From assembly GCA_001692895.1 (NCBI GenBank), contig KV748228.1, positions 869,344 through 933,343 on the forward strand: DNA of 64,000 nt. The letters run 5' to 3'. The position numbers and the translations under genes are program-made. The notes below the pieces were generated by a model that saw only the letters and a list, made by a program, of their open reading frames with translations, was not told the origin of the DNA and did no database searches. This DNA comes from Cenococcum geophilum 1.58 (lineage: Eukaryota > Ascomycota > Dothideomycetes > Gloniales > Gloniaceae). This document shows, piece after piece, positions 4,528 through 50,398 of this stretch (its first letter is position 1; the number at the start of each line of letters is the position of its first letter).

Positions 4528-4668
4528 TGTTAAAATAGGTATAGTTTAATGATTATTTTTATTAAGCATATATTTCTAAGAGGGTGGGGAAGCGACAATT
4601 ATATAGAAGAGTGTTAGAGGTTCCACCTAATAAGAAGCAATACACGCTAACTAGAACCCACTTTAACA
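4528..4668 (-). repeat. 3' LTR of copia I copy 1
   Basis: It is 141 bp with termini TGTTAAAATAGG and CCCACTTTAACA, a TGTTAAA/TTTAACA inverted terminus. Confidence 0.95.
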
Positions 4669-4699
4669 GCCCCCCTTAAGCTGAATATAGGTAATAATA

Positions 4700-7600: not shown

Positions 7601-9500
7601 ATAAAGAAAGAAGAGGCCGGACTTGCGAAATGCGTAAGCTATAAGCTTTAAGTTGTAGAGAAAATCGCATCTAAGGTTAGATAGATAAAAATAAACTTAA
7701 TTATTAATAAGCTATAAACCAGATACTAGGTTGGCTTGTAAATTAGGGATATAAAAGACGTTAGTAAAAATAAGCTCTCTCTTAACTTCTAAAACTATAA
7801 GTCTTAGGTATATATCTCCCTTTCCTATTAACTGGAGACACATTTCTCTAATTCCGGAGATAATAATCTTCTTATTAGCTTAAAGATCTTAATAGGTAAT
7901 AAATAGCTCTTTTAACTAAAATATGTACTAAGTATACCTAGTATTAATAATAATTACAGAGGAGAGGTTAATATTTAGTTTAGCTATAAAATAAAGTTGT
8001 CTAGTAAGCTTAGAGGTATAGAAGTAAGGAGGAATGCAAATAATATAGGGAACCCGCCACTGATAGGTAATAAGGTATAGTTGGCGAAGTAAGTTACATA
8101 TAAAGTAGCGTAAGTTCTTTTATAGGTTATATACATAGGCTAATAGTTTCTATGCTAATAGTAAAGGTTAAAGGGCGATCTATATAAGCAGTAAAAGACT
8201 ATAAAAGAAGAATAATATGCCAGCTATAAAGAGTTTAAAGGGAATAAATAAAAGATAATATAAGAGTGGATGGATCTATGGTGAAGAACGTCTAATATAA
8301 TCGGAAATACGGGAGTTTTAGCCACGATTATTAAGGTATAATTATAGCCTAGTTAGCTTGCTATAGAGTTAAAGCTTTTATAGCCACCTTATTTATTACT
8401 AGACTATAATTAATTAAATAGCCATTCCTATATATTACCTTAACTTAGTAAAAGGCTTACCATTTATTATTATTATTAATAGTACTATAGGTAATAATAC
8501 AGATCCTAATAAGGAGTTACTCTAATAGGCTTTTCGTTATTTTCTAAAGTCCCTTCTATAAGTAGAGCGCGTATTTATCTCTGCGGCTTTTTTAGAGTTT
8601 TCCTTTTACTAGATCTCCTTTAAGTGGGATTAAAGAATCTAGCATCTGTCTTCCTAGTAGCTAGCGCGTTTATATGGCCTGCAATACAGTCTATTATATT
8701 GTTATTGGCCTTACTAATTGTAGTACTGCTAGTAGTAAGAGGCTTAATTTATATATGCTTAGAAAGCTACTAGTTAACTTTAGAGTATAAGTTGCTCTTA
8801 TATATAGGTAAGGCCCTAAACTTTTAAGAGAGTAAGGGTCTCGTTAGTAAGGGAGTATATAAGGTAGAACGATTCTTACTAGCTATTAAAAGTAGGACCA
8901 AGACTATTAATAAACTTAAAAAGTAGGTCTATTCGGTCTATAGTGTGGTTTTAGGTCTTAAGGTCTAAGTATATCTTCTTAAATTTAATAACGTATTCTT
9001 TAACGTTCTTACAGTTTATAAGAGTAAGGTTTCGCTATTTAGCGCATATTTTAGCGTATATTACGTCTCCTTTTAGCTTAAATTCCGCGTATAAAATTTC
9101 TATTATATCCTTAATTTTAATATAGTCTTTAATAAGGTTCTATCCGCGAGTGCTATAGGTTATAAAGATACAGTTTACTCCCTTAAGTTACTTTCTCTTT
9201 TAAGCTTTAAGATCCGCCTAATAAGTTTTAATAAGTTTATTATAAGCGTCTCTCTTAACCTAAGGTTGGTTTATAGCTAGTCTAGCTTCTAGGTTAACTA
9301 GAGCGTTTAAATTAAAGTTATTCTTAATTAGCTACTACCTGGTACCTTTCTTCCACTTTTTATAGTTTATAGGGCTTTTAAGTGTCTAAATATTAGAGAG
9401 ATTAATATTAGACTTAAAGTATTTAATTACTATAATAACTTATAAGAGAGAAGCAAGTGTTTTAGTAAAAAGGTGGGAAATAATATTCTTTAGCTTGTAT
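4700..9500 (-). pseudogene. Copia I copy 1 gag-pol relic
   Basis: Read on the minus strand, the order is gag (about 8400-9450), protease and integrase (about 6500-8300), RT (about 5600-6250) and RNase H (about 4700-5300), as in Ty1/copia. The RT active site reads YVNNLLL near 5659-5685 in place of YVDDLLL, so both catalytic Asp codons are lost by G-to-A change. Dozens of TAA/TAG codons break the frame. An open frame on the opposite strand at 5921-6244 is an antisense by-product, and the same shadow appears in copy 2. The product cannot be functional. Confidence 0.9.
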
Positions 9501-9540
9501 ACTATTACCTTTTTAGTATTTAGTATAGTGCTAAGGATTT

Positions 9541-9575
9541 AATAACTAATAATAATAATAATAATAATAATAATG
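9541..9575. repeat. (AAT)n microsatellite in the copia I leader
   Basis: A run of about ten AAT units. The equivalent place in copy 2 (about 39220-39250) has only a short, interrupted TTA/TTG run, so the microsatellite expanded after the copies separated. Confidence 0.85.
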
Positions 9576-9689
9576 GCACTAGGAATAGTAATAGTAATAG
9601 GTAACTAAGACATTGATAGAAAACCTGATTTAAGGTTAACAGATAATAATAGGCAACTAAGATATAATAAGAAAAGCCGATCTCGATTA

Positions 9690-10015
9690 ATAGGATGTCT
9701 AAAATTTCTAAAGTGCGTATATTTAAGTTAAAGTGCGTATATCTAAATGTCTAAAATATCTAGAGTGCGTATATCTAAGGTGTCTAAAGTGTATATATCT
9801 GAAATATTTAGAGTATAAAGTATCTGGAGTGCGTATATCTAAAATGTCTAAAGTACATATGTCCAAAGTATCTAGAGTGTAAAGTATCTAGAGTGCGTAT
9901 ATCTGAAAAGTCTAGAGTGTGTATATCCAAAGTATCTAGAGTATAAAGTGTCTAGAGTGCGTATATCTAAAATGTCTAGAGTGCGTATGTCTAAGGTGTA
10001 TCTTAAGACGTAGTA
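9690..10015. repeat. Minisatellite in the copia I 5' leader
   Basis: Tandem degenerate units of roughly 20-25 bp are built on TCTAGAGTGCGTATATCTAA. The same array, inverted, follows the 5' LTR of copy 2 (about 38805-39095), so it belongs to the element and is not flanking DNA. Confidence 0.8.
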
Positions 10016-10057
10016 TATAGGTTGCTGCGCGATAGAAGCGTCTTTGGGCTTATAACC

Positions 10058-10198
10058 TGTTAAAATAGGTATAGTTTAATGATTATTTTTATTAAGCATA
10101 CATTTCTAAGAGGGTAGGGAAGCGATAATTATATAGAAGAGTGTTAGAGGTTCCACCCGACAAGAAGTAATACACGCTAACTAAAACCTACTTTAACA
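10058..10198 (-). repeat. 5' LTR of copia I copy 1
   Basis: It is a 141 bp direct repeat of 4528-4668 with nine transition differences, and the target duplication CTACG follows at 10199-10203. Confidence 0.95.
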
Positions 10199-10399: not shown

Positions 10400-12160
10400 T
10401 GGGCAAGTCTGCGGACGTTGCTGGCTGGGCGTTACTACTGAGTCCGTGGGTTGTACTTAATAGTAGTCCTCCCAGTTCATACGCATTTTGTTACTGTTCT
10501 TTAGTACTACTCCGTTATAAAAAGCAGTAAAATCCGTTTGTACTATAGGGGCCCGTTACTGCGTCTATTCTTCCTTTGGCCTACCTAGATCTGTTCCTTA
10601 GTATATACGGAGCCAGTTCTTAATATACTCTAGCTGTCCTTTATTGCCGAGCCATGGCGGTTTGGGTCTAGGTCGTTCGCGCGTTCTAGCTACTAGCCTT
10701 CCTCGATTAGATAGATGTACAAATCCTCGCAGAATAAGATCCTTTAAGCCTTGACATTTGTGCTCGGTGAAACGGTGACTCCCTCCGCATCTAGAACAGG
10801 TCTGCCGGCCTTGTCTTTGTGTGCCTTGCTGACCCCGTGCGTCCCGCTGCGGCCGTCTAAAGGCAGTAGTATCTTGCGGATATCGGGGGTCCTGCGGATA
10901 TTGGGGACCTTGCGGATATTGAGAGTCTTGTGGAGGTCGACAGTCTTGTAGGACAAAGGGAGCTCGGGTGCTGTTCTGCTAGTCTTTGTACCCTTGTGCT
11001 GGGCTTTGAACTGTAGCCTGATCCGTAGTAGGCGACTGCTGCTGCATTAGGGCTCCTCCGTGTACACCTGGCCTAACTGGGTCTAGAAGTCTTCCTTCCC
11101 TTTGCTGCCGTAGCTCTTGTATAAGCTGGACATTCAGGACATCTTCTGGAAGGACAGCCATTCGCTCAGCGTTCTCTGCAGTCATTATTCTTAACTCTAC
11201 GGCCTCCTTCAGTCTCTTAAACACAAGGGTTCTAGGCTCGTCTGCTACGGCGCCTGTCTTTTCTATTGCGTGCCTGCGGTAGTCAGTTGGGAGTCCTCGC
11301 ATAAACCACCACCCCTTCTCTTGCTTAGTAAGGTTTCCTGCGGCTACTGCTTTAGCTGAGATACTGGTGAAATCCTGTATGTAGTGACGCAGATCTCCTG
11401 GCTGCTCCGCTGACTTCCGAACGAAAGCTTCCACAAAGTCTCTTGTCTCTATGCGTCGGTAGTAGTCGTCCGCTCGATATTTAGCCCTAAGCTTTCTCAC
11501 AAGCTCCGTCTAGTCACCAGCTGTAAATTTAGGTAAGCTTCGGATCTATATTCCTATCCAGTAATCGCAGTACTCCGGAAGGCCTTGGTGCTTCTTACTC
11601 GTTATATGGTGTCGGGCGCATAGCCGCTCGTACTGTTCGATAAACTGCGACACGTTCTGTTCCGTAAAATAAGGCGTTCCAACAGTTCCCGGGGCCGGCA
11701 TAGGCTGGACCATGACGTAGATCTTGTCTTGAGCCGTCGACTGCTGGTTACGTGCATCTAGAGCTTCCTCAGGAGCTTGCAGGTGGTCCTTACGGCTCAT
11801 ATCCTTCGTCTGCTGAGGGTCATCGGTCCTAGGTGACACGGGTGGACGCTGCGGTAGGTCTGCTTGCATGGCCGCGGTCTTGACAGAGGGTGTCCCAGAT
11901 GGCTGTCCTGGTGGTGCTTTGACAGGTGCATGCTTCGGCTGGTCTACCTGTACAGCTATGTCCCTAACGGAGAGCTTCTTGACGCCTGAGGGGGGGTTTC
12001 CCTGGGAGAGCACGGAATCTTCATCTTCTACTGCTACCGGGTCTCGGTACGTCCATCTGTTTTGGCCTGCCGTCGTTCCGCGCGGTAGGGTGCTGCTAAG
12101 CCTCTTGCTTCTTCTTATATCTACTTCTTTACGGAACGCCTCCAGAGCTGCTGCTGACAT
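10400..12160 (-). pseudogene. Gag-like polyprotein of the gag-only element, lightly RIP-mutated
   Basis: Read from an ATG at 12160 on the minus strand, the frame runs through to about 10600 with only three stops, all TAG: near 11546, near 11507 and near 10976. Each is explained by CAG-to-TAG or TGG-to-TAG. The N-terminus is Pro/Gln-rich and low complexity. A retrotransposon-gag-like helical domain follows (YFTEQNVSQFIEQYERL, later WWFMRGLPTDYRRH), then a QYPQ-type repeat stretch, and a zinc-knuckle-like CSRCGGSHRFTEHKC whose spacing is not the standard CX2CX4HX4C. Further open sequence with TAA/TAG continues to the copia insertion. Base composition is much less AT-rich than the surrounding pol relics. 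The role is presumed capsid protein; the family is inferred, not certain. Confidence 0.75.
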
Positions 12161-12828
12161 AATCCGGATGACTTAAAAGAGGATAAAGCTAAGCCAGAAT
12201 AGGAAGCTTTTAAGGACAGATCTGATCTCGTGTGCTTGCGACCTTACTCGGTATTGTATCCTTTGTTCGTAAAGGGCAGTACTAACTTCCTTCGCCGCCA
12301 GATGTCTTAGATCTCGTTTCCATCTAAATGATTGGCCTTTAGCCACCCGTCTCTACGTCTTTGATAAAGGTCTGGCCATGCTCGGTAGTAGATCTCGGTA
12401 ATTCTAACCGCCGGTTAAAGTTATCTGATTGGCTCGCTGGTTCGCCTAACGTCCTTATATATAACTTTCCAAGACCCTTCTCTTCCTGTGACTAGGTTGG
12501 TGACCAAGTCAAGGTGGCAAAGACATCCGATTTAGGTCGACAGACTTGCAGTCTTTTGCTTCTTATTGCCACTCTTTGGCCTATGCGTTAAGTCTAGCTG
12601 TCCTGTCTTTTTCCGGTACTGCCTAGTTCCCCTTACTGTTCAATATTGCCTGGTTCTCTTCTACTGTCTTGTCTGTCTGGCTGGCGGTTCTTCTGCAGCT
12701 AGTTGTTCTTCTACAGCTGGCGGCTCTTCTATAGTCGTAGGATGTTCCTGCGCGTCTCCCGTGTATGTAGCACTAGACTTCTAATCCAAAGAGCTTGCCG
12801 TCGTCCCCACGTGGAATGCCATAAAATA
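12161..12828 (-). other. 5' leader of the gag-only element
   Basis: Untranslated region between the 5' LTR and gag, low in RIP. It contains palindrome P2 near 12402-12424 beside a CCAAT box. Simple TTCTTCTAC and GGTTCTTCTGCAGC runs lie at 12650-12740. No convincing coding region was found; the 72-codon frame at 12566-12784 is compositionally a repeat. Confidence 0.5.
12402..12424. repeat. Palindrome P2, copy 1
   Basis: Imperfect dyad with core TAACCGCCGGTTA extending to CTAACCG / CGGTTAAAG. It is followed by ATCTGATTGG, that is, a CCAAT box in the reverse orientation. Confidence 0.75.
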
Positions 12829-30930: not shown

Positions 30931-31893
30931 GCTCTGCACGAGGCTCTACATAAAGCTCTGCACGAAGCTCTGCACGAAGCTCTGCACGAAGCTCTACACG
31001 AAGCTCTGCACGAAGCTCTACACGAAGCTCTACACGAAGCTCTACACGAAGCTTTGCACGAGGCTCTACGGGCTCTACACGAAGCTCTGCGTACTAAGGC
31101 TCTGCATGAGGCTCTACACGAAGCTCTGCACGAAGCTCTACACGAAGCTCTGCACGAAGCTCTACACGAAGCTCTGCACGAAGCTCTGCACGAAGCTCTA
31201 CACGAAGCTCTACACGAAGCTTTGCACGATGCTCTACACGAAGCTCTGCGTACAGAGGCTCTACACGAAGCTCTGCACGAAGCTTTACACGAAGCTTTGC
31301 ACGAGGCTCTACACGAGGCTCTACACGAGGCTCTACACGAAGCTTTGCACGATGCTCTACACGAAGCTCTGCGTACAGAGGCTCTACATGAAGCTCTACA
31401 CAAAGCTCTGCACGAAGCTTTACACGAAGCTTTGCACGAGGCTCTACACGAGGCTCTACACGAGGCTCTACACGAGGCTCTACACGAAGCTCTGTACGAA
31501 GCTCTGCACGAAGCTCTACATAAAGCTCTACACGAAGCTCTACACGAAGCTCTACACGAAGCTTTGCACGAGGCTCTACACGAGGCTCTACATAAAGCTC
31601 TGCATATAGAGGCTCTGTACGAGGCTCTGCACGAAGCTCTACACAAAGCTCTACACAAGGCTCTGCACGAAGCTCTACATGAAGCTTTGCATGAGGCTCT
31701 ACGGGCTCTACACGGAGCTCTGCGTACTAAGGCTCTGCATGAGGCTCTACATAAAGCTCTGCACGAAGCTCTACACGAAGCTCTGCACAAAGCTTTACGA
31801 AGCTCTACACGAAGCTCTACATATAGAGGCTCTGCACGAGGCTCTGCGCGAAGCTCTGCGTACGGAGGCTCTACACGAAGCTCTACACAAAGC
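30931..31893. repeat. 12 bp satellite, about 80 units
   Basis: The unit is GCTCTRCACGAA (variants GCTCTACATAAA, GCTTTGCACGAG), about 960 bp. Because 12 is a multiple of 3 and the unit has no stop, several frames on both strands stay open and spell repeats such as ALHE, KLCT or CRAS. These frames are by-products, not genes. The main variation, CTGCAC versus CTACAC, is a TpG-to-TpA change. Confidence 0.95.
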
Positions 31894-32060: not shown

Positions 32061-32660
32061 AGACGACCGTCGCCGGAGCCAGACGACCATCGCCGGAGCT
32101 AGATGACCGTCGCCGGAGCTAGACGACCGTCGTCAGAGCTAGACGACCGTCGTCAGGAGCTAGACGACCGTCGCCGGAGCCAGATGACCGTCGCCAGAGC
32201 TGGACGACCGTCGTCAGAGCTAGACGACCGTCGTCAGAGCTAGACGACCGTCGCCAGAGCTAGACGACCGTCAGAGCCAGACGACCGTCGTCAGAGCTAG
32301 ACGACCGCCGCCGGAGCCAGATGACCGTCGCCAGAGCTGGGACGACCGTCGTCAGAGCCAGACGACCGTCGTCAGAGCTAGACGACCGTCGTCAGAGCTA
32401 GACGACCGTCGCCAGAGCTAGACGACCATCGCCAGAGCTAGACGACCGTCGTCAGAGCTAGACGACCGTCGCCGGAGCCAGATGACCGTCGCCAGAGCTG
32501 GACGACCGTCGCCGGAGCCAGATGACCGTCGCCAGAGCTAGACGACCGTCGCCGGAGCCAGATGACCGTCGTCAGAGCCAGACGACCGTCGCCAGAGCTA
32601 GACGACCGTCAGAGCCAGACGACTGTCGTCATCGCCACACGACCGTCGCCAGAGCCACAC
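32061..32660. repeat. 20 bp satellite, about 30 units
   Basis: The unit is AGACGACCGTCGYCRGAGCY, with a few shortened copies (for example near 32270 and 32610). It contains the dyad GACGACCGTCGTC. It is GC-rich and little affected by RIP, in contrast to the surrounding gypsy sequence. Confidence 0.95.
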
Positions 32661-32735
32661 GACAACCGTTCAAACGACCAGCCAGCGAACACGATAAACG
32701 ATTCGATCGATCGATCGAATCAAGGTGACATAGAC

Positions 32736-37396: not shown

Positions 37397-38179
37397 CTTA
37401 TCTCTATATATATTAATTAAAGTCCATATAATAAAGCTCTAAATTAAAGCTTTGGGTTAATTGATTAGCTTATTACTTATAAATTCGGGTTAAAATTTTT
37501 GTTAGGGAGTACTAACGATCTGCATATTATAGTAGGTATAACAGTAGACGTGTTGCTGCGGTTAAGGATTAGGTAGGGAGGACCTTTTTTATATATACTT
37601 AGGGCCCTAATGTCTCTATGGTCGGGGTTGATCAGCGGCTCGATTAGCGGGCGTCCCTTAATACGCGTATATCCACAGCTTGGCGCTGGTGGCGCTGTAG
37701 ATATCCCTTGCATTAATAGAGTCCGTAGGGTTGTACGATCAAGAATACGAACTTCCTCGCGTCAAGATGAAATAGATAACTTTATCAATTAAATGCACTA
37801 CCAAAATGGTGCGCAACGATATATCCAATGACATAGACCTTGTGCAGCCTACTTAATATATTATTCTCAAAAATCGGCTCGCAAAAAAGCTACCGCTAGA
37901 ACCCAAAGCACTGCTTTATTTAAGAACTCTCGTAATGCAGCAAAACGATTGACCGCCTAAATGTATGGCTTATTGATTGGTGCGCACGGGCCATAACTCT
38001 ACGGACGTTGTTATCAATGCAAGGGATACTCGAATATGTGCCACGTGGCTGGCTAAACATATTATTTTCTGGCTGACCGACAATTAACTTAGACCGTCCG
38101 GTCGAAGTTCTATAAAATTTCAACTACTACCTATATAAAAGACAAGCAATACACAAGCTTTAGCTCAGTAAGCTACTAA
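37397..38179. other. Low-RIP island left of the small open frame
   Basis: After AT-rich sequence to about 37500, composition becomes balanced. It holds an imperfect inverted repeat: TATCCCTTGCATTAATAGAG (37699-37718) with GTCCGTAG to its right, and the reverse complement of TATCCCTTGCATTGATAA and CGTCCGTAGAGTT at about 37993-38031. A TATA-like TATATAAAA lies at 38132-38140. Open frames of 60-78 codons on both strands have no recognisable similarity. Confidence 0.4.
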
Positions 38180-38587
38180 AACAACAGTACTAGCCAAGCA
38201 GTCGGAGTTCCTAACGTTGTGGGCTTCATCGAGGATGGAGGCAGTGTATTCTGTCAACCGATAAAATACGTCCGATTTGGCCTCGCCAAGAGGACCGGTC
38301 TTTTTAGGCCAATTGGGCGTCGACACATTCACACCAATGCTCCCGCTAGATCAGGTGATGCACCCGGTAAGGCATATTTTTACGGCCTCCACGTTAGAAA
38401 GCTCCTCGTAAAAGCTTTTTCAAACCTAACTACTATCTCGCTTGTTCCGAGGCCTGTAGGCATGACATCAACTTTCTTCTCTTATTAGAGTCTTAGGCAA
38501 ATACGATACCTAGACGATGCGACACCTACACATGAAAGCGAAAGTGACGCAGCCCTAAAGTATGCGCAGCCTTATGCCACAGACTCT
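38180..38587 (+). pseudogene. Small open frame of unknown function with one in-frame TAG
   Basis: A frame open from 38180 and continuing to TAA at 38585-38587 contains a single internal stop, TAG at 38486-38488. No ATG opens it; the first possible initiator is GTG 38219, so an upstream exon or a lost ATG is likely. The predicted peptide (about 135 codons) includes HIHTNAPARSGDAPGKAYFY and an acidic C-terminus ending ATDSSD. I do not recognise the family. Composition is balanced, unlike the transposons. The stop fits CAG-to-TAG and lies 110 bp from the copia I insertion. A TATA-like box lies 40 bp upstream of 38180. Coding status is uncertain. Confidence 0.35.
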
Positions 38588-38598
38588 TCAGATTAAAG

Positions 38599-38739
38599 TG
38601 TTGAAGTGGGTTCCAGTTAGCATGTATTGCTTCTTATTAAGTAGAACCTCTAACACTCTTCTATATAATTATCGCTTCCCTACCCTCTTAGAAATGTATA
38701 CTTAATAAAAATAATTATTAAACTATACCTATTTTAATA
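38599..38739 (+). repeat. 5' LTR of copia I copy 2
   Basis: 141 bp, TGTTGAAGTGGG to ATTTTAATA. The final CA is changed to TA by RIP. Confidence 0.95.
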
Positions 38740-38804
38740 GGTTATAAGCCCGGAGACGCTTCTATCACATAGCGACCTATATACTACGTCTTAAGATATA
38801 CCTT

Positions 38805-39095
38805 AGATATACGTACTTTAGACATTTTAAATATACGTACTCTAGACACTTTATACTCTAGACACTTTAGATATACACACTCTAGACTTTTTAGATATAC
38901 GCACTCTAGATACTTTACACTCTAGATACTTTAAATATATGCACTCTAGACATTTTAGACATACATACTCTAGACACTTTATACTCTAGATATTTTAAAT
39001 ATACGCACTCTAGATACCTTAGATATACGCACTCTAAATATTTCAGACATTTAAATATACGCACTCTAACTTAAATATACGCACTCCAGAAATTT
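38805..39095. repeat. Minisatellite in the copia I 5' leader
   Basis: Degenerate ATATACGCACTCTAGA units, the inverted counterpart of 9690-10015. Confidence 0.8.
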
Positions 39096-39359
39096 CAGAC
39101 ATCCTATTAATTAAGATTAGCTTTTCTTACTATATCTTAGTTGCTTATTACTATCTGTTAACCTTAAATTAGGTTTTCTATTAATGTCTTAATTGCCTAT
39201 TACTATTACTATTCCTAGTACTATTATCATTGTTATTATTATCGTCATTAGTCGTTAAATCCTTAGCACTATACTAAATACTAAAAAGGTGATAGTATAT
39301 AAGCCAAAGAACATTATTTCCTACCTTTTTACTAAAACACTTGCTTCTCTCTTATAAGT

Positions 39360-42300
39360 TATTATAGCAATTAAATACTCTAAGTCCAATATTAATCTCT
39401 CTAATATTTAGACACTTAAAAGCCCTATAGACCACAAAAAGTAGAAGAAAGATACCAGGTAGTAGCTAATTAAAAATAACTTTAATTTAGATGCTTTAGT
39501 TAACCTAGAAGCCAAACCAGCTATAAACCAACCTTAAGTTAAGAGAGACGCTTATAATAAATTTGTTAAAACTTATTAGGCGGATCTTAAAGCTTAAAAG
39601 AAAAAGCAACTTAAGGGAGTAAACTGTATTTTTATAACCTATAGCACTCGCAAACAGAACCTTATTAAAGACTATATTGAAATTAAGGATATAATAAAAA
39701 TCTTACACGCGGAATTTAAGCCAAAAGAAGACGCGATATACGCTAAAATATACGCCAAATAGCGAAACCTTACTCTCGTAAACTATAAGAACGTTAAAGA
39801 ATACGTTATTAAATTTAAGGAAATATACTTAGACCTTAAGACCTAAAACTATACTATAGACTAAATAGACCTACTCTTTAAGTTTATTAATAGTCTCAGT
39901 CCTACTTTTAACGGCTAGTAAAAATCATTCTATCTTATATACTCCCTTACTAATAAGACCCTTACTCTCTTAAAAGTTTAGGGCCTTACCCATATATAAA
40001 AGTAATTTATACTTTAAAGTTAACTAGTAGCTTTCTAAGCATATATAAATTAAGCCTCTTACCGCTAGCAGCACTACAATTAGTAAGGCTAATAATAATA
40101 TAATAGACCGTATTATAGGCTATATAAACGCGCTAGCTACTAGGAAGACAGATATTAGATCCTTTAACCCTACTTAAAGGAGATCTAGTAAAAGGAAAAC
40201 CCTAAAAAAGCCGTAGAGATAGATACACGCTCTACTTATAGAAGGGACTTTAAAAAACAATAAAGAGCCTATTAGAGTAACTCCTTATTAGGATCTATAT
40301 TATTACCTATAGCACTATTAGTAATAACAACAAATGGCAAGCCTCTTACTAAGTTAAGGCAATATGCAGAAATAGCTATTTAATTAACTATAGTCTAGTA
40401 ATAAATAAGGTGGCTATAAAAGCTTTAACTCTATAGTAAGCTAACTAGGCTATAATTATACCTTAATAATTATGGCCAAAACTCCCATATTTCTAATTAT
40501 ATTAGATATTCTTTACTATAAATCCATCCACTCTTATATTATCTTTTATTTATTCCCTTTAGACTCTTTATAGCCAGCATACTATTCTTCTTTTATAGTC
40601 TTTTACTGCTTATATAAATCGCCCTTTAACCTTTACTATTAGTATAGAAACTATTAGCCTATATATATAACCTATAGAAGAACTTACGCTACTTTACACG
40701 TAACCTACTTCGCCAACTATACCTTATTACCTATTAGTGGCGGGTTTCCTATATTATTTGCATTCCTCCTCACTCTTACACCTCCAAGCTTACTAGACAA
40801 CTTTATTTTATAACTAAACTAAATATTAACCTTTTCTCTGCAATTATTATTAATACTAGGTATACTTAGCACATATTTTAATTAAGAGAGCTATTTATTA
40901 CCTATTAAAATCTTCAAGCTAATAAGAAGATTATTATCTTTAGAATTAGAGAAACGTGTCTCTAGTTAATAGGAAAGGGAGATATATACCTAAGACTTAC
41001 AGTTCTAAGAGTTAAGAGAGAGCTTATTCTTACTAACGTTCTTTACGTCCCTAATTTATAAGCTAACCTAGTATCTAGTTTATAGCTTATTAATAATTAA
41101 GTTTATCTTTATCTATCTAACCTTAAATACGATTTTCTCTACAACTTAGAGCTTATAGCTTACGCATTTTATAAGTCCGGCCTCTTCTTTTTTTATACTT
41201 AGGCCAACTATTAAGAAGGGCTTATAGCCTTTATAGTTGGCTATTAAACCAGCTATATATTATATAGCAGCTTATAAAACCCAGCCGAGAGGTTATAGTA
41301 CAAAAGGCTTAGTTATATTAGCCCCTAGAACTTATAAAAGCTCTAAAGAATGTTAAAAGGGATAGACCTCACTCACTTACTAGACCTTTACGACTATACC
41401 TATAAAGCCTGCCTACGTAGTAGAATGCATAATATTATATATTGGGATTCTCTTATTAACTACGATACCAAGCCTTATAAAGTTATATTCTCTAATATTA
41501 AAGGACCTATAAAAGTAGCTGGCTATAATAGATTGAGATATTTCGTTACTTTCTAAAATAGAGTTAATAAAATAAGCAAAGTCTACCTAATAAAGTATAA
41601 GGCTAAAGTCCTATTCTATTTTTAATAATATTAAGCAAAGGTTAAATAACAAGGAAGTCTTATCTTACGGCTATATAGTGATAGTAGAGGAGAATATCTT
41701 AAATATGCTTTTTAGCTAGAACTTACAAATAAGGGAATTTAGTTCTTATACTTAACCCTAAAAAGTTAATAACAAAATAAAGCCTTAGAACGACTTAATC
41801 GCACAATATATAACTAAGCCTTTACCTTTATAAATAATTACTCACTTCCTAAGAACTTCTAGCTAGAAGTAGTTAAGCACGCTAACTTTATATAAAATAT
41901 CCTCCCTATTAAATTGTTGGAAATATAGACCCCCTATAAAATAAAGTAAGGCGAAGTCTTTAATTACTCCTAAATTCACACCTTTAGGTATAATGTCTGG
42001 TATAGGGCCAGCAGTTAGAAGAAGTTCAGCTCTTATATAGATAAGAAGGCAAGATTAGGGAACCTTATTAGCTTTAAGGGTAAATATATTATTTAAATTC
42101 GAGATAAAGAGATAGGATAGCTTGTATATGCCTTAGCTATTTACTTTTAAGAAACTGTTTTAATAGTTCCCGGTAGCAATAAGCGTTAAATTTAAGAATA
42201 ATATATTAAATACGACTCCGATACTCTAGATATTAACGCTTAGTTTAAGGGAGAAGAAGCTCTATCTAATTACGCTACCTAACATAAATAGCATTAAGAA

Positions 42301-44100
42301 GAGAAACAGCTCCTTAAGAAAGCTTAAAAATTAAAGCGCCTCGCTACTAATAAGATACCCCTATAGAAGTTAAAACGTCTAGTAGCTACTAATAGGCCTT
42401 AACTACCTCTTAAGTATCACAATTCTGTTAACATTAGAGAAAACCCGCCTATTATAGCATTCTTAGCACTTACCTACTTCTTAACCCCTTCCTTTAAACA
42501 CCTCTACGCTATACTTAGCAACTTCCCTATAGCTAAACCTTATAAGCTAAGGTTATAGAAACAATCTACCCTTAACGTTAATAATAATAAATAGTACTCC
42601 GCTAGCAAAGACGAAATCAGCTCTTATAAAGTAAATAATACCTAAACACTTATTAACCGACCTCTTAATTATAAAGTTCTTAACGCCTAATGGGTTTTTA
42701 AGCATAAGCGGGATAATAAAGGAAGGATTATATAATATAAGGCAAGGTGGGTAGTAAAGGGTTATAAATAACAAGCTAGGGTTAACTTTAATAAGACCTT
42801 CGCGTTTATTATAAAACCTATAAGCTATAAAGCGCTCTTTATTATTATAGCTATATAAGACCTTAAGATTAAACAAATAGACATTAAGACCGCTTTCCTT
42901 TACGGAAGCGTTAAGGAGAAGATCTACGTTAATTAACCTAAAGGTTTTAATAATGGAACTAGACGGGTTTATTATCTAAATAAAGCACTTTACAGTCTTA
43001 AATAGTCGCCTTAAGTTTAGCATTAAACGCTCTTAGAGTTCCTTATAGATGCTAATTTTAAACCCCTTAACTTTAACTCTTTAGTCTTCGCTAAAGGTTC
43101 TATATATATTACAGTCTATATTAATAACCTCCTACTTATTAGACCAGATATTATTAATATTAAGATTATTAAAGCTTAACTTAGCGGACGCTTTAGTATG
43201 ACTAATTTAGGCCCTATTACTTATTACCTTAGTATAAAAGTAACTTAAAATTAATAACTTTGTAAACTACGGCTTAGCTAATTCTCTTACCTTAAAGAGG
43301 TTATTTATAGCGCTAGTCTTTAGAACTGTTCCCCTTACCTTATACTAATAGGAACCTCTTATCTTTAACTAGCGGCGGCAGATTATTAGGCTAACTCTAT
43401 ATTTAAGACTTAATACTAATTGCTAGTTGGCACCCTAATATACGCTATACTCGGTACTTAACCTAATATCGCCTTCGCCGTCTCCTTTATTAGTCGCTTT
43501 GCTTCTAATCCTAATAAGTCTTATATATAAGCTATTTTTTAAATACTTTCCTACTTACGCGGCATACTTAACCTCTAACTTATCCTCTAAGGAGAGATAT
43601 AAGCGCTTTAGGGGTTTATAGACTTTAGCTAGGCAGATAACTTGGAAACTTAAAGATTAATATTAGGATTTGTGTTTAATATTAGAAGCGGTACGATTAG
43701 CTAGTCCTTAAAGCGCTAACCTATAATAACACTCTTAACTTACAAAGTAGAGTATATGGCATAGATAGTTATAGCAAAAGAAGCTATTTAGTTACAACAA
43801 CTCCTTTAAAAACTATCTCTAACTAACAAATCCCCTTACACAATAATTATTTACGCCAATAATTAAGGTGCTATTACTTTTATAAAAGACCCTAAGTTTT
43901 ACGCTTAAACTAAGCATATTACTCTCCAACATTACTTTATTTAGGAAAAGGTTATAGACAGAGATATTAAGCTGGAATATATACAAACAAGTTAATAAAT
44001 GGCTAATAGTTTTACTAAGGCGCTACTAAAAGATGCATTCTATACATTTAGAGATGCTTTAGGTTTAAAGAGATATTAACGTCTCTTATGACCTTCATAT
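39360..44100 (+). pseudogene. Copia I copy 2 gag-pol relic
   Basis: The order is gag (about 39360-40350), protease region, GAG-pre-integrase/integrase, RT and RNase H. At 41350-41556 a stretch of integrase stays open, including YDTKPYKVIFSNIKGPIKVA. The RT contains QIDIKTAFLYGSVKEKIYVN near 42875-42935 and the active site YINNLLL near 43118-43138, where YVDDLLL is expected, so both catalytic Asp are gone. RNase H lies at about 43690-44050. The frame is destroyed by TAA/TAG. An antisense frame at 42553-42876 is a shadow. Confidence 0.9.
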
Positions 44101-44128
44101 TGTTACCTATATTTAGCTTAAAGGGGGC

Positions 44129-44269
44129 TATTAAAGTGGGTTCCAGTTAGCGTGTATTACTTCTTATCAGGTGGAACCTCTAACACTCTTCTATATAATT
44201 GTCACTTCCCCACCCTCTTAGAAATGTATGCTCAATAAAAATAATCATTAAACTATACCTATTTTAACA
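44129..44269 (+). repeat. 3' LTR of copia I copy 2
   Basis: 141 bp, TATTAAAGTGGG to ATTTTAACA. TAAAG follows at 44270. This LTR is now the DNA nearest the NLR promoter. Confidence 0.95.
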
Positions 44270-44386
44270 TAAAGACCTGCTGATCTACTACGAACATCAA
44301 TCTACGAGCGGCGAGCCGTAGCTCGATATAAAATTCGCCTCGCGGCCTCATCCTTAAACTCTGTCGTAGTGCACGTCCCGTTAACA
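44270..44386 (+). promoter_or_regulatory. Residual 5' flank of the NLR gene with TATA-like box
   Basis: 117 bp remain between the copia LTR and the ATG. TATAAAA at 44326-44332 lies about 55 bp upstream of the ATG. An imperfect dyad CGAGC...GCTCG lies at about 44304-44324. The start context AACAATGT has A at -3. Any upstream elements of the original promoter are now 5.7 kb away, left of 38594. Confidence 0.45.
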
Positions 44387-47300
44387 ATGTCTACGACACA
44401 GCCTAATCCTGAAAAGTGCGTGATTCAATCTCTAGATCCGTTTTATGCATCCTTGCTGAGATAGAGCAGTGGTATTGACTCGGCAGTTTCTGTATTTTGG
44501 AAATCTTGCCGGACATTTGAAGCTTCGCTAAGCGATACTGATAAAGCCTTCTTCGAGAAATTTCAATCGCCGCGGGAGATGCTCAAGCAGATCAAGCATG
44601 ATGTATTGAATCACAAAATTCAGCGATCTACTATGGCGAAGTGTGCTCGTAGGATCGAAGTAGTCAGCACAAAGTTTAGCCCTTTTTTTGGGATTATCGA
44701 CATTTTCGTCCAAACGCACCCAGAATACGCCGGGATATTCTGGGGTGCCATCAGACTAGTTTTCCTGTGGGGAAGCAACTTCACTTCATTTCTGGAGAAA
44801 ACCTGTGAGATGTTCGAGTTCATGGTCCACGCTCTACCTGCATACGAAGACGCAGCCGAGGCGCAAACCAAGCTTCTTCAGAACAGGCTCAGCGCTAGAA
44901 TTCTGGACGCTCTCTCTATGGTTTATTCTGATATTCTTGAGTTCTGTGCGCAAGTGTGTCGAATCCTCTCACCCGACCGAAACTTTTCCAGAAAGGCAAA
45001 GACGATTTGGAAGTTGTCTTGGACTCCTTTTCATATTCAATTTGGAGGCCTCCTCGAGAGCTTCAAGAAGCATGCACAAATCTTTAAGCTTGAGGTGAAA
45101 AGCTATAATTATCGATTGACAGTGGAAAATAATAGAAAGCTCGATAAGTTAACCGTGGAAAGTAATAAAAAGCTTGATCGATTGACCGTGGAAAACAACA
45201 GAAAGCTCGATGTCCTTTATGAGGAGCTGAAGAATTTAAGGCTCTCATCCCAGAATACCACGAATGGTGAGGCCATTAGCCACCAGGGGAACCTTCCAGA
45301 TGGTGAGTTCAGAGTTATAGCTTCAGGGCTCTCTATCTCACTCTTGGAACAGACGAGAAAGCAGAGAAGATACAGCAGACAATCAATGCCGTGAAGACTT
45401 GGATTAAACCGCCAGAATGGCAAGACATATACGAATCAGCTTCAGCGCGCCGACTCTCCGGCACAGGAGACTGGATATCGCAAAATCGCTCTGTAAAATT
45501 TTGGCTCTCGAGATTGGAAAGTGCATGGTCAGAGGGAACTTCTCCAGATCCGAACTTTCTATTAATTAAAGGTTTATTGACCGGAACCTCTGGCTTTGCA
45601 GAACTAATGTCGGGTAGGAAAGCCGGGATACGGGAAAACAATCCTAAGCGCGGCCCTTATCGACCAGCTTCAGATGCTGCCAGATCAGTCTGGAAAAGCT
45701 TTTATTCATTTTCACTATTACGACAGGCTGAGAGCATGGAGCGGAAATACTGAAGCTGCTGGGGCTCTCCGGGCCTGGCTCGTTCAATTAATCCACGCAC
45801 ATCAAGATGAGATTGATGAAGAAGCTCTTGGTGCAATGACAATGTTGATGAGGAAAGCAGGAAGCGGCCAGCAGCGTGCGAGTGGAGAAGAAATAGTTGC
45901 ACTCTTGAAGTGGTTTCTCTATCGCTATCCAAGGACTATTATGATCATTGACGGGGTTGAAGAGACCGATAATCCTGACGAATTCTTTCGCCTCCTAAGT
46001 ATTCTTATGTCCGACCCCGTCCTCCCCGCACCTTCAGAAGCTATTGACGGAACAGAGAATCCCGCAGCTCAGGGATTGCCCTTAAAGAACCCTCTAAAGT
46101 TAAAGTGCGCGGCGGGAATTTTGGTCTTTGCTCGACCTAGTGTCTCCGTTCCAGACAACGTGATCTGCGATGAAGTCACATTTGATCGAAGTCTCAACCA
46201 ATACGATATCGAGTGGTACTTAGAGTCCAACATGCATGACATAGTCGGGAAGGGTTTCCTGGGAAGGATGTCTAAGTCTGAAGTCGAAAAGACCAGCAGA
46301 TTGATCGTCAATCGCGCTGATGGCATGTTCCTCTTCGCAAAGCTTCTAGTAGAATACTTGAAGACTGAAGGACTTTTTGTCACTCAGAGAAAGGAGGTCT
46401 TAAGGAAAGTGGTTCTTTTTGAAGGACTTGAAGAGCTATATGGAGCGATATTGAGTACTCTACAGCGGATCCTTCCCCCAGAAGCTAGAAGGAACCTACA
46501 AAGAGCATTTGAGTGGACCGCCGAATCCTTGGCACCACTGCATTTCGACCAACTGCAGGACGCTATAAGAGTTTCGCAAGGCCATCCAATTTCAGTGGAT
46601 GATATAATACCAAACTTTGAGAAACAACTGGGACGATTTTCAGGAGCCCTTTTAGAACCGACGTCTTCTGGCAAGGTCACATTCATTCACAGTACTTTGG
46701 TCGACTACCTCTCCGAAGATCGATCAGAACATAGAGAGGGAAACAACCACAAACACGAATTTTATCTCAATCGACAGCATACACGGATGAGACTTGGACT
46801 TTACTGCACTAGTTTCCTTTCTCGGATCATTCCACACGGCCCTCTAGGAGGCCAGTCTGACATTACGCCTTCTTGCGAGGCCATAAAAAGCCAGTTCCCA
46901 ATACTCAATTACATGGTGAAGTACTGGACACCGCATATCGAGCAGTCTATCGCAACATTTATCGATCACAGGGACGAAGAGACTGAAAGACTATTAAATG
47001 ATCTTATTACGGAACTGCACAGTTTTTCTCTCAGGAAGAAAGCGGTTATGACCTGGATTGAGGCTTGTTGGTTGTTTCGCATCGTCCCAAGCATGGATTT
47101 TATACTAGCGGGTTTTCTTGAGGACTGCTTTCGAAGATCTTGGTCCAAAGATCTTCAAAACTTGACCACTGATCTCTTGGAGCTATCCAATGATGTGCAG
47201 AAGTTGAACCAGCGATGGGATCATGTGCTGTCTGCGCAGCCTAACGAAATCTGGGAACCAAGTATACTCACACTCTCAAAATCACGGTTCTGGCTTGAAA

Positions 47301-48850
47301 CAGACAAAGCAAAAAGCCGGGAGCTTACTTCCGTCACAAATGACGATCCCATTGTTATTTCTCTCAAGTCTGAAGTTTCCACAAATGGCCTCGAAGTCGG
47401 CCAAGTGAACCTCATCCCGCCACGGTGAGTTATAGCCTCCAGCTAATCTCAGCCCAGATTAGATATATTGACGTATAAGTAGTGATTTAGGTGTCCGTCC
47501 AGATCAGTGCAAAAGTTGCAGAGGAGAAGGCTCTTTGTCCAAAGACCAAACACCTCGAATCTATGGTTGGAAAGTAAGTTTCGAGGCATGGTCTCTGTCC
47601 ACAAAGAGGGTACTCTTCTCCGCACGCTTCGATTTGAACCAATATGAGGTTGGCTCCGATATACAAACCTGTAAGGAAGGGCATTGTTATCCCTGGACTA
47701 CTATCAATGTTCCTCTAGCTATAGCTGGAAACCTCCGAAAGGTCCAGATCTCCAATACTCTTCTCACCATCTTGGATCTCGACCAATCCATTGAAGCGGA
47801 GAACGCGCGCGGATGTTCTTTTATCATCGATTACATCGATCCTTGGCAGGACCTTCGCCGAGAGCGTTCAAGTAGAAATCCCGTTTCATTTGTTCGCGGT
47901 ACTATGTTTAGCCCCCTGAGCAATTTTCTACTGCTTGTTGACGCACACCACGGACTCGCTATTCTTAAATTTGATAAAGACCAATGCACCATTTTCTCCC
48001 GCATAGAAGGTTTTGGTATCGAAGACAAGGAGGGTTATGTGTTGGCGCGTCATGCCTGTTTCCACCCTTTCCTGCCGATCCTGGCGGTGGTCCGGTTCAA
48101 AAACGTGTCATTATGGGACTTTTCGCAAATCGGTTTGTAGCAGTCACAGCTCTATTATATTTGCTTCTGACATGATCTTTAGACAATCCAATGGTATCGA
48201 TATGCTCTCGCGAGCTCGAAGATCTTCAGTTCTCGACGTGTGGAAACTTCGTCTTCGGTTTTGATAATAGTAGAGGAGTTCGACAATTCATCTTTTTGGG
48301 TATTGCAGAGGAAATCAGCAAGCTTCGTAAACATAATCTCATACAAGCACAAGCGAACAACTATGAACAGTCCATATCCAGCCTACTCAACGATTCTATC
48401 TCTCAGGACGCTACACCGAATAATTCACAAAAGCCGAACGCCGTTGTCTTTGGCAAAGATGCCCAAGGAGTTGCTTCTGCATCAATGCTTCGAGAATTTC
48501 ACGAAGAAGGCACCTTGCTGCTTACCACTCTTCGGCAGGACGGAATAATCCGGACTGAAACTCTCTCTCGTTTGCCGAAAGACTACAAGCTCACCGAAGC
48601 AGTTGTAGCAATGCCATCGGAGGACGAGAAAGAAAACATATTTCGTATAGTTATCAATGTGAAGCCAAAGTTAAGGCACAGTATATCCCCTGATGAGAAG
48701 AGATTACCGGTTGTTATAGAGCGCAAGAGATGTTCAGTGCCAACCTTCGAACGTAAGCGGAAGAGAGGGCTTAGCGCGGGTCAGAATAAGGATTTACGCA
48801 TCCTTAAAATCCTTAAAGATGGACGTAAGAGTGAGGGCGAAGGCGATTAG
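44387..48850 (+). CDS. DUF7708-NACHT-WD40-like NLR (STAND NTPase), five exons, in-frame TAG at codon 26
   Basis: Proposed exons are 44387-45302, 45353-45571, 45618-47424, 47522-48132 and 48183-48850, giving 4221 nt, 1406 residues and a TAG stop. Residues 1-64 and about 65-215 match the N-terminal DUF7708 region of fungal NACHT proteins (WGAIRLVFLWGSNF, 119-132). Residues 244-276 are three 11-residue coiled-coil repeats. Joining exons 2 and 3 creates Walker A GKPGYGKT (379-386); Walker B is IMIIDGVEE (about 488-496), followed by NACHT-associated helices. Exons 4-5 hold WD40-like blades (FKNVSLWDFS, about 1173-1182) and a basic tail with KRKR (about 1375-1379). Such proteins act as intracellular sensors in fungal immunity or incompatibility; that role is inferred. 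Codon 26 is TAG (44462-44464), probably from CAG. If it is real and not read through, Met65 (44579) could start a shortened protein that keeps most domains. Confidence 0.85.
44462..44464 (+). other. In-frame nonsense codon (TAG, codon 26) in the NLR gene
   Basis: Upstream and downstream codons read as one conserved N-terminus (CVIQSLDPFYASLLR, then SSGIDSAVSVFWKSC). The context AGATAGAGC is what AGACAGAGC becomes after a CpA-to-TpA change. No small intron removes it. It is 193 bp from the RIP-mutated copia LTR. Confidence 0.75.
45116..45214 (+). repeat. Three in-frame 33 bp repeats in the NLR coiled coil
   Basis: The units encode LTVENNRKLDK, LTVESNKKLDR and LTVENNRKLDV. Synonymous differences between units (TTG/TTA, AAT/AAC, CTC/CTT) show that the repeats are not brand new. 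The 11-residue period fits a hendecad coiled coil between the DUF7708 region and the NACHT domain. Confidence 0.9.
45303..45352 (+). other. NLR intron 1 (50 bp)
   Basis: GTGAGT ... GGAACAG, phase 1. Joining gives NLPD-DEKAEKIQQTINAVK in the downstream frame. The unspliced frame ends at 45394. Confidence 0.8.
45572..45617 (+). other. NLR intron 2 (46 bp)
   Basis: GTTTATTG ... CTAATG ... GGGTAG, phase 1. Splicing joins FLLIKG to KPGYGKTIL and so rebuilds the P-loop. The unspliced reading has no P-loop and shifts out of frame. Confidence 0.9.
47425..47521 (+). other. NLR intron 3 (97 bp)
   Basis: GTGAGT at 47425, with acceptor GTTGCAG ending at 47521 chosen because it alone restores the WD40-like frame (phase 2). 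Acceptors at 47490 and 47502 lead to early stops. A branch-like GCTAATC lies at 47443-47449. Confidence 0.75.
48133..48182 (+). other. NLR intron 4 (50 bp)
   Basis: GTTTGT ... CTGACATG ... CTTTAG, phase 1. It joins DFSQI to DNPMVSICSRELEDLQF and removes the TAG at 48138. Confidence 0.85.
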
Positions 48851-48974: not shown

Positions 48975-49721
48975 CAGGCAAAACTCCTTAGTACGATATG
49001 GCTTCTGCAGCCGAGCGTATCGTAATATCAATGGTATCGTTGTATTCAGGTTTTGTATGTAAGATACACCAAAAATCAAAATTATGGTATATATTGTGTA
49101 TCTACATGNGCGAAGCCGTAATTGGGCGACTGGCTCTACCAAAGAAAAAGGTAATCGCCACTTGCTTAGTGTTTTGAAGCCATCGGTCTTAAATTCGACG
49201 ATTGTGCCTTAATAGAGTTACAATAACCTCTCTATTACTAGCTTTTTGTCGTTCCCTATACTGTTAAAGGGTTCGTAAGGCCTCTAGCGCCTTATTAAGC
49301 TTAATTTAAGGTTGTTGGGCGTTCTTTTTATCTGTTTCTGCATCGCGATCGGGTCCAGCATAGAGCTTTTAGTAGTGGGCGCGTATTTTCTAGCGTTTAA
49401 AGTTAGAGAATCTATAACGACGTAGCCTCTTAGAATTTCGAGACCTACCCATAATTAATAAGGTAGATTTAAGTATAGAGAGTAAGATCTAAGGCTTAAT
49501 TTAACAGATTTTGATAAAAGTTAATGGCTAAACTTGCGGTAAGGTAAGGCTAAATCCGACAAATTAAAACTGGTTATACCGATTTTGGTGGAGGCACCTA
49601 ACGATATCGTGAAAAGTCAGATTATCGTTAATTACACCCAAAAAGGCTTAATTAGGGCGTGTAGATCGTAATACCAATGGTATCGTTATATACCCGGTAT
49701 CGTACTAAAGAGTTTTGCCTG
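48975..49721. mobile_element. 747 bp terminal-inverted-repeat element just 3' of the NLR gene
   Basis: Left end CAGGCAAAACTCCTTAG TACGATA (48975-48998) and right end TATCGTA CTAAAGAGTTTTGCCTG (49698-49721) are inverted with one mismatch. Inside each end lies another related block, CGTAATAnCAATGGTATCGTT (about 49019 and 49669). No transposase frame was seen. No target duplication is evident. It starts 124 bp after the NLR stop codon, so it may supply the transcript's 3' end. The interior 49100-49650 shows mild RIP and no gene. Confidence 0.6.
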
Positions 49722-50398
49722 TATAGTATATCAAAAGAAAAGAAATCGACAGGAGCATCCTCCCGAGGTTATTTCGGTAATATGGGCCCTATATTGCATG
49801 GGGTACTCTACCTCAAAAATACTACTTAACGTTACCTCGCTAAAAACTATTACTACGCCTTATACCCTCGGAAGAAGCCTTACCTAAGGCCTTACTATAA
49901 TACTATAGGATTACAGGAGGTCTAAATATATAGAGTTTTAGAGTTAAGCAACTAAGCTCTAGTTAGCTTTTTTAACAAATTAATATAAGCCCCCTCTAGG
50001 CACGTTATAGAGATAAAGCCTATAAGTTAAAGTACCTTAGGCCTATATTTAAATTAGGATATCGAGCTACTTCAGCACTTAATAAAGGTAAAAGGCCAAA
50101 GACTTAAGATTCTTAAAAAGAGATAATAAAAAGCTTAAGGACCTATAATGGACGAAACCCAATAGAGTAGAGTAGTAGCTTAGCTTAAAAAGAAATAAAT
50201 AAGTATAGGATAAAGATTTTTTATAATATAAGAACAGGACTAAAATTCTTAAAAAGAAATAAGGATATTATAGAAACCTAGTTAAACTAAGGCTAAAGTA
50301 TAACTTAAGAAAGAAGCAAGCTTAGAGTTAAAGTACCTACTATTTAAAGATTTTAAGCTATAGTAGTAGGATTTAAACGCGGCCCTATACGCAGAGTG
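49722..50398 (+). pseudogene. Gypsy D-type coding fragment (plus orientation)
   Basis: From about 50080 to 50340 this matches, in the opposite orientation, the sequence at about 55250-55640 (shared blocks such as CTTAAGATTCTTAA and GCTTAAGGACCTATAAT). It is a RIP-mutated fragment of the same family, cut by the LTR at 50399. Function within gag-pol was not assigned. Confidence 0.5.

Follow-up and report, generated by a model that had tools for sequence, protein, structure and literature searches.

An open NLR-like gene and an apparently recent Copia-type insertion among RIP-mutated repeats of Cenococcum geophilum

Our results indicate the presence of a real NLR-like gene, at positions 44387-48850 of the plus strand, in a 64,000-nt stretch of Cenococcum geophilum 1.58 DNA (the window); its corrected model has six exons and 1388 codons. 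The reading that we favour, and consider fairly probable, is that the six exons are intact and encode a STAND/NLR-like signalling switch, and that, separately, a young Copia-type element has inserted upstream. Heavily RIP-mutated repeats come to about 120 bp from this full-length immune-receptor-like gene, which is itself free of a RIP signature.

The initial annotation had proposed that four introns restore a continuous frame of 1406 codons. These introns do have GT..AG borders and keep a single frame, but the frame spliced in this way meets a TAG at codon 26 (44462-44464). Exon 1 (44387-44415) is short, running from the ATG through MSTTQPNPE plus 2 nt to the donor aaa/GTGCGT, and a fifth intron, judged from the sequence, is best placed directly after it at 44416-44469. 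With this start intron the frame has 0 internal stops across its 1388 codons, and it is open even though 105 of them are a single C:G to T:A transition away from a stop. Exon 2 (44470-45302) carries DUF7708 and a helical linker and is followed by intron 1 (45303-45352, phase 1, GTGAGT..CAG). The NPHP3_N region begins in exon 3 (45353-45571), whose last base falls inside the first glycine codon of the P-loop, so that intron 2 (45572-45617, phase 1) interrupts this motif. Exon 4 (45618-47424) encodes the remainder of the P-loop NTPase, and intron 3 (47425-47521, phase 2) and intron 4 (48133-48182, phase 1) delimit exon 5 (47522-48132), the C-terminal module of no known family, which ends in exon 6 (48183-48850) with the stop codon at 48848-48850.

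When any GT donor is allowed, three introns keep the frame at the start, 44416-44469 and 44416-44466 (both phase 2, with donor GTGCGT) and 44420-44464 (phase 0), and all three remove the TAG. We therefore dropped the idea that this codon marks a pseudogene; a TAG that a start intron explains is not proof of one. It is very improbable that the TAG is a true nonsense change and that translation begins only at ATG 44579, which would leave out the conserved N-terminal stretch. Such a change from CAG to TAG would fit RIP, the TAG is in frame in the first model, and ATG 44579 is the next in-frame start codon; however, besides the three introns that span the TAG, the sequence 5' of 44579 is conserved in a paralog on contig C43 (L029). 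Moreover, the same unrestricted enumeration in paralogs forces a phase-2 start intron in L029 and L033 (one solution each) and permits one in L032 (4 solutions, 1 of phase 2 and 3 of phase 0) and in L030 (33 solutions, of which 22 are phase 2, including its GTAAGT donor, 7 phase 0 and 4 phase 1).

The domain profiles agree with the intact gene. DUF7708 (PF24809) at 44663-45079 scored 42.5 bits against a Pfam cut-off of 25 (E 7.5e-11; 3.8e-12 on 44579-45301 alone), which bears out the label given initially. NPHP3_N, reaching to 46012, scored 66.7 bits against 24.8 (E 3.7e-18) and identifies a nucleotide-binding STAND domain. AAA_22 lay just above its cut-off (27.4 versus 27 bits), whereas the Pfam NACHT model lay below (21.8 versus 26.7 bits). 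Both nucleotide-binding motifs that had been claimed are present, Walker A (GKPGYGKT, 45571-45640, also found in the C43 paralog) and Walker B (IMIIDG, 45938-45955). A winged helix usually follows the NTPase in STAND proteins, and a weak GPIID_WHD match occurs at 46508-46723 (E 0.05, 14.5 bits against a cut-off of 27). Between DUF7708 and the NTPase, the linker contains three tandem 11-residue repeats, LTVENNRKLDx (45116-45211; 33 nt each, TRF period 33), predicted as a high-pLDDT helix within an otherwise poor single-sequence structure model, in which the DUF7708 region (pLDDT 52) is too poor for use. DUF7708 was not named in the literature that we searched, and we know of no function for it.

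The C-terminal module appears to be of another kind than first described. It had been called WD40-like, and we have dropped that label on profile evidence from the gene, its paralog and solved structures. No match to PF00400 or a related WD40 model was listed for the C-terminal 447 residues at an E limit of 10 (matches above about 0.1 mostly do not pass the HMMER filters), no Pfam family exceeded its cut-off, and no canonical NLR repeat was recognised by Pfam. The C43 paralog likewise gave no WD40 match at E≤1. That the module is a diverged WD40 domain or beta-propeller, which would make DUF7708-NACHT-WD40 right in substance, seems to us rather doubtful. The short WD-like motif LWDFS (48111-48125) is kept in the paralog, a propeller profile matched the module very weakly and below its cut-off (E 0.22), and a single-sequence model of exon 5 is mostly beta at very low confidence (pLDDT 34). 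Nevertheless, a two-sequence profile found no propeller among solved structures (11 chance-level matches), further searches of this sort gave chance-level matches only, and four other DUF7708-NPHP3_N loci of the same genome have WD40 above cut-off close by.

Taken together, we propose a switch built from a front DUF7708 domain, a coiled-coil-like linker of the three repeats, an NPHP3_N-type NTPase, possibly a winged helix, and the C-terminal module. The C-terminal part would hold the NTPase off until a ligand is met; nucleotide exchange would then permit oligomerisation of the NTPase, and the clustered DUF7708 domains would set off an output, for which a cell response in self/non-self recognition or against viruses is most plausible, provided that the gene is expressed.

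A negative composite RIP index is confined to 5 of the 64 one-kb windows, which lie at 44-49 kb, over the gene; on this index the gene is the only gene island of the window, as first noted, and together with the domain profiles it supports an NLR-like architecture inside RIP-mutated repeats. Ten open reading frames, picked from those of at least 80 codons in the window, gave no Pfam match above cut-off. Other GC-rich stretches lie at 2-4, 10.6-12.2 and 31-33 kb. The second of these was considered as another gene and dropped, being a repeat with at least 20 other near-full-length copies (40 of 192 candidates scored), and the third consists of tandem repeat arrays.

Upstream of the gene lies a RIP-mutated Copia-type LTR element (38599-44269, plus strand), with 141-bp LTRs at 38599-38739 and 44129-44269 (ends set by eye) and the target-site duplication TAAAG on both sides (38594-38598 and 44270-44274). 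Its right end coincides with that of its relatives, as all 25 other long matches listed stop at 44267-44285, and 12 of these stop exactly at 44269. A 50-residue remnant resembles the RVT_2 reverse transcriptase below cut-off (E 0.022), 0 of 6 other remnants matched, and a further remnant is presumably RNase H, by its motif. Over 5672 sites, the two Copia copies of the window are separated by 513 transitions, with 0 transversions, which suggests that the element is young and was RIP-mutated afterwards. The insertion therefore appears recent, and polymorphism among strains is predicted more for it than for the gene, which the initial annotation had suggested as a possible presence/absence locus; with its target-site duplication the insertion represents one concrete event that could be scored across strains by PCR. 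Since only 117 bp, the 5-bp duplication included, separate the element from the ATG, strains that carry the insertion may express the gene differently from those that lack it. To the left of the insertion, 38087-38596 may be upstream sequence of the gene that was displaced; a genome search listed no match there beyond query base 687 (40 of 680 candidates scored). The RIP-like index is 0.51 in these 510 bp and 0.79 in the 117-bp 5' flank, the latter from few counts. Copia bursts in C. geophilum have been described (PMC5445492), and in the portion of that source available its Copia families, like ours, have many copies and a RIP-like status given as "Probably"; the window element may belong to the GalEa clade or to another.

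Downstream, an inverted-repeat, DNA-transposon-like element (48975-49724) begins 124 bp past the stop codon. It has 32-nt terminal inverted repeats (88% complementary) and at least 61 genome matches, most of them inside its ends (40 of 508 candidates scored). Because it lies between RIP-mutated repeats, the gene could be silent. That it is intact yet already silenced by the Copia insertion and the surrounding heterochromatin, with decay to come, is possible, if less likely than the functional switch. On either side an element comes to about 120 bp from the gene, and of 702 genes surrounded by TEs in another TE-rich ectomycorrhizal fungus, 584 (83.2%) lacked a transcript, according to the part of PMC6980582 available. 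The coding region, on the other hand, has neither a stop nor a RIP signature, although decay need not show yet because the insertion is so young. It is hardly credible that the gene, sitting as it does among repeats, travels within a larger mobile element and is not a long-standing resident of the locus; both flanking elements end on their own beside it, which argues weakly against such a unit.

Proximity of these repeats to NLR-like loci gives a hint only. Three of the 22 other Copia insertions listed lie within 5 kb of an NPHP3_N locus against 0.19 expected (Poisson P 0.00095; 151 merged loci), as do 2 of 37 inverted-repeat elements against 0.32 (P 0.04) and 0 of 39 members of a third repeat set against 0.33, under a uniform null with four distances tried and starts taken from among the matches listed. 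Near kinases (117 merged loci) we found 0 of 22 Copia insertions against 0.15 expected, a zero that says little, and 0 of 37 inverted-repeat elements; a second control with MFS transporters was too small for use, at 9 matches (9 of 390 candidates scored). A Copia element also lies 227 bp before the start of a DUF7708-NPHP3_N gene on contig C17. We regard it as improbable that insertions from a young Copia burst fall repeatedly beside NLR genes (at 117 bp here and at 227 bp on C17) and that RIP then mutates them during a cryptic sexual cycle. To our knowledge, no sexual stage of C. geophilum has been observed. If this account were true, strains would differ in their NLR repertoire through genes switched on or off by insertions, not through changes of sequence, and a divergence made up of transitions alone would record recent meiosis at the molecular level.

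Within its own genome the gene is one of many. Profile matches, counted exon by exon, number at least 154 for NPHP3_N, at least 86 for NACHT and 29 for DUF7708. No near-identical copy was found among the 34 of 84 candidates scored, and the closest relative listed is an old paralog at 19.8-37% identity, so that the suggestion of a fast-evolving gene finds no support here. This paralog (L029, C43:1383734-1388073) is a 1369-residue model with splice sites chosen by eye. It is colinear with the window gene over the whole length, C-terminal module included, and introns 2-4 fall at identical alignment columns and phases; the start intron has equal phase and lies two columns apart. Its counterpart of intron 1 is in the same linker and is ambiguous, with 13 frame-keeping splice choices, the first of which was used. 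In contrast, identity over exons 2-6 is as low as stated (19.8% in exon 5), the DUF7708 region of the paralog model holds two additional introns, one of which was placed around a stop, and the 11-residue repeats are without counterpart in the alignment. For exon 6, the C43 locus is the one other among the matches listed (E 6.3e-5). By tblastn, neither the protein of the window gene nor that of the paralog matched the C17 DUF7708 gene at E≤1. Start introns are not universal in such genes; that on C17 seems to begin without one.

Since an expansion of NACHT/WD40 genes in C. geophilum is already on record (PMC5023957), one more such gene is in itself no surprise. What the gene adds is a subfamily to which our searches assign two loci of the genome; its presumed sensing end has no match among known domains. 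The four DUF7708-NPHP3_N loci with WD40 (C16:555634-558851, C47:492114-496498, C18:743742-746674 and C4:2828761-2832328), joined by coordinates of profile matches and not by gene models, share with it the order DUF7708 then NPHP3_N on one strand, and differ by the WD40 nearby. Fungal NLR and STAND proteins are catalogued in PMC12258605 and PMC9815663, and the former, in the portion available, defines an NLR by an NB domain with canonical C-terminal repeats and has no DUF7708 in its list of canonical N-terminal domains; the window gene differs in its DUF7708 and in that no canonical C-terminal repeat was recognised. Like these proteins, however, it joins an N-terminal domain, a central P-loop NTPase and a C-terminal module, and belongs to a large family within one genome.

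The NLR-like gene at 44387-48850 (+ strand) had been described in the initial annotation as a continuous 1406-codon frame with four introns. These introns (45303-45352, 45572-45617, 47425-47521 and 48133-48182) all have GT..AG borders and keep a single frame, but the spliced frame is not continuous, as a TAG sits at codon 26. No intron-free in-frame ATG was found 5' of the conserved VFWKSC stretch in this gene or in its paralogs L029 (on contig C43), L030, L032 and L033. When any GT donor is allowed, three start introns keep the frame of the window gene, and every one of them removes the TAG: 44416-44469 and 44416-44466, both of phase 2, and 44420-44464, of phase 0. We prefer 44416-44469, given that under the same rule phase 2 is the sole solution in L029 and L033, and that it is possible in L032 (one of four) and in L030 (22 of 33, among them the best-looking donor, GTAAGT). 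The resulting model has six exons and 1388 codons with no internal stop; a single C:G->T:A transition would turn 105 of these codons into a stop, and for 86 of the 105 the context is CpA/TpG. The start intron is not universal, since a DUF7708 gene on contig C17 seems to begin without one.

The closest relative in the genome, among 34 of 84 candidates scored, is the C43 paralog (C43:1383734-1388073). Its splice sites were picked by eye, so its 1369-residue model is a hypothesis. Identity to the window protein is 36.8%, 34.9% and 32.4% in exons 2, 3 and 4, and 19.8% and 27.6% in exons 5 and 6; in the short exon 1, 3 residues out of 7 match. Introns 2, 3 and 4 of the window gene are identical in column and phase in this model (columns 365, 990 and 1248); the start intron has the same phase and lies two columns off, and the counterpart of intron 1 is ambiguous, with 13 frame-keeping choices.

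Of the proposed DUF7708-NACHT-WD40 layout, Pfam profiles support DUF7708 and an NPHP3_N-type NTPase but not WD40. In searches of the window protein, NPHP3_N (3.7e-18) and DUF7708 (7.5e-11) exceed the cut-off and AAA_22 just does; NACHT and GPIID_WHD score below it. Among the matches listed for the C-terminal 447 residues there is no WD40. An own-genome search with the C-terminal part returned four match rows, three of them the window gene itself and the fourth on C43 (query 239-415). By coordinates, DUF7708, NPHP3_N and WD40 are arranged together at C16, C47, C18 and C4. The initial observation was largely right; it overlooked a single intron and named one domain, WD40, that lacks profile support. 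Three 33-nt coding repeats lie in the linker (45116-45211), where they encode a long predicted helix joining DUF7708 and the NTPase; their copy number could differ between strains.

The embedding of the gene in transposons was borne out. The composite RIP index is below 0 for the five one-kb windows at 44-49 kb and above 0 for the remaining 59 of the 64. It is -0.61 for the gene, +1.27 for the upstream Copia-type element (38599-44269, + strand) and +0.51 for the 510 bp to the left of that element; the 117-bp 5' flank and 124-bp 3' flank of the gene give +0.79 and -0.30, each on few counts. The stretch 38087-38596 has no genomic match among those listed, with 40 of 680 candidates scored, and hence is not called single copy. 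On the 3' side, an inverted-repeat element of about 750 bp (48975-49724), with 32-nt inverted repeats and many copies in the genome, starts 124 bp past the stop codon; no clear target-site duplication was seen around it. Elsewhere in the window, long tandem arrays (30931-31893, a 12-nt unit x79; 32061-32663, a 20-nt unit x30) form a GC-rich island, and 2000-4000 is GC-richer (0.46-0.47) with a positive RIP index. The GC-rich stretch 10600-12200, a repeat, holds on its - strand two open stretches, 176 and 208 codons long, neither with a Pfam family over the cut-off. The genome comprises 177,193,698 bases in 162 contigs, the window being bases 869344-933343 of contig C53; for Cenococcum geophilum, published figures are 177.57 Mb (PMC5445492) and 178 megabases with 81% repeats (PMC5023957).

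The upstream Copia-type element carries 141-bp LTRs and is flanked left and right by the target-site duplication TAAAG. Another whole copy (4528-10198, - strand) has its own duplication, CGTAG, and LTR starts were placed by eye in both. A search with a 687-base query across the Copia end, in which 40 of 62 candidates were scored, listed 41 matches; 26 of these, self included, span 568 bases or more. The 25 long matches other than self stop between query bases 568 and 586, and 12 stop exactly at 570, equivalent to 44269. Between the two window copies there are 513 transitions and 0 transversions over 5672 sites; the LTR pairs of the individual copies show 12 and 9 transitions, again with 0 transversions. 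Among seven copies (these two and the five best others from that search), each of the 21 pairings differs by 136-184 transitions and 0-2 transversions over about 1969 sites. Taking C as the older state, variable cytosines number 158/174 in CpA, 125/164 in CpG, 50/294 in CpT and 30/188 in CpC. Another C-to-T process may lie behind these transitions; because divergence is transition-only and CpA and CpG are hit, we read the pattern as RIP-type mutation acting on a young burst of nearly identical copies. RIP is premeiotic wherever it has been studied, so that recent RIP would imply recent sex. For Cenococcum geophilum, PMC5445492 enters the RIP status as 'Probably' and also speaks of bursts. The earlier interpretation was half right: an NLR-like gene does sit among transposons, next to an apparently young insertion, but variability of the gene itself is at present a conjecture.

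The same Copia family occurs near other such genes. On C17 (around C17:1318111-1318290), an LTR lies 227 bp 5' of the putative start codon of a gene matching DUF7708 and NPHP3_N, and on C3 a gap of 187 bp separates the end of an LTR match from an NPHP3_N match. The C3 copy (C3:3622061-3628519) adjoins NPHP3_N at C3:3628706-3629194, possibly within another NLR gene. Of 22 other insertions, three have an NPHP3_N locus within 5 kb versus 0.19 expected under a uniform null, four distances having been tried, which is a hint only.

No paper naming DUF7708 turned up in the literature searched, and a cell response as its output would follow from the habit of the family. The parts list of the window protein is what was observed; its working is modelled on fungal NLRs. 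By analogy with these, as presented in PMC12258605, the C-terminal module would sense, the NTPase would switch and oligomerise, and the N-terminal domain would act.
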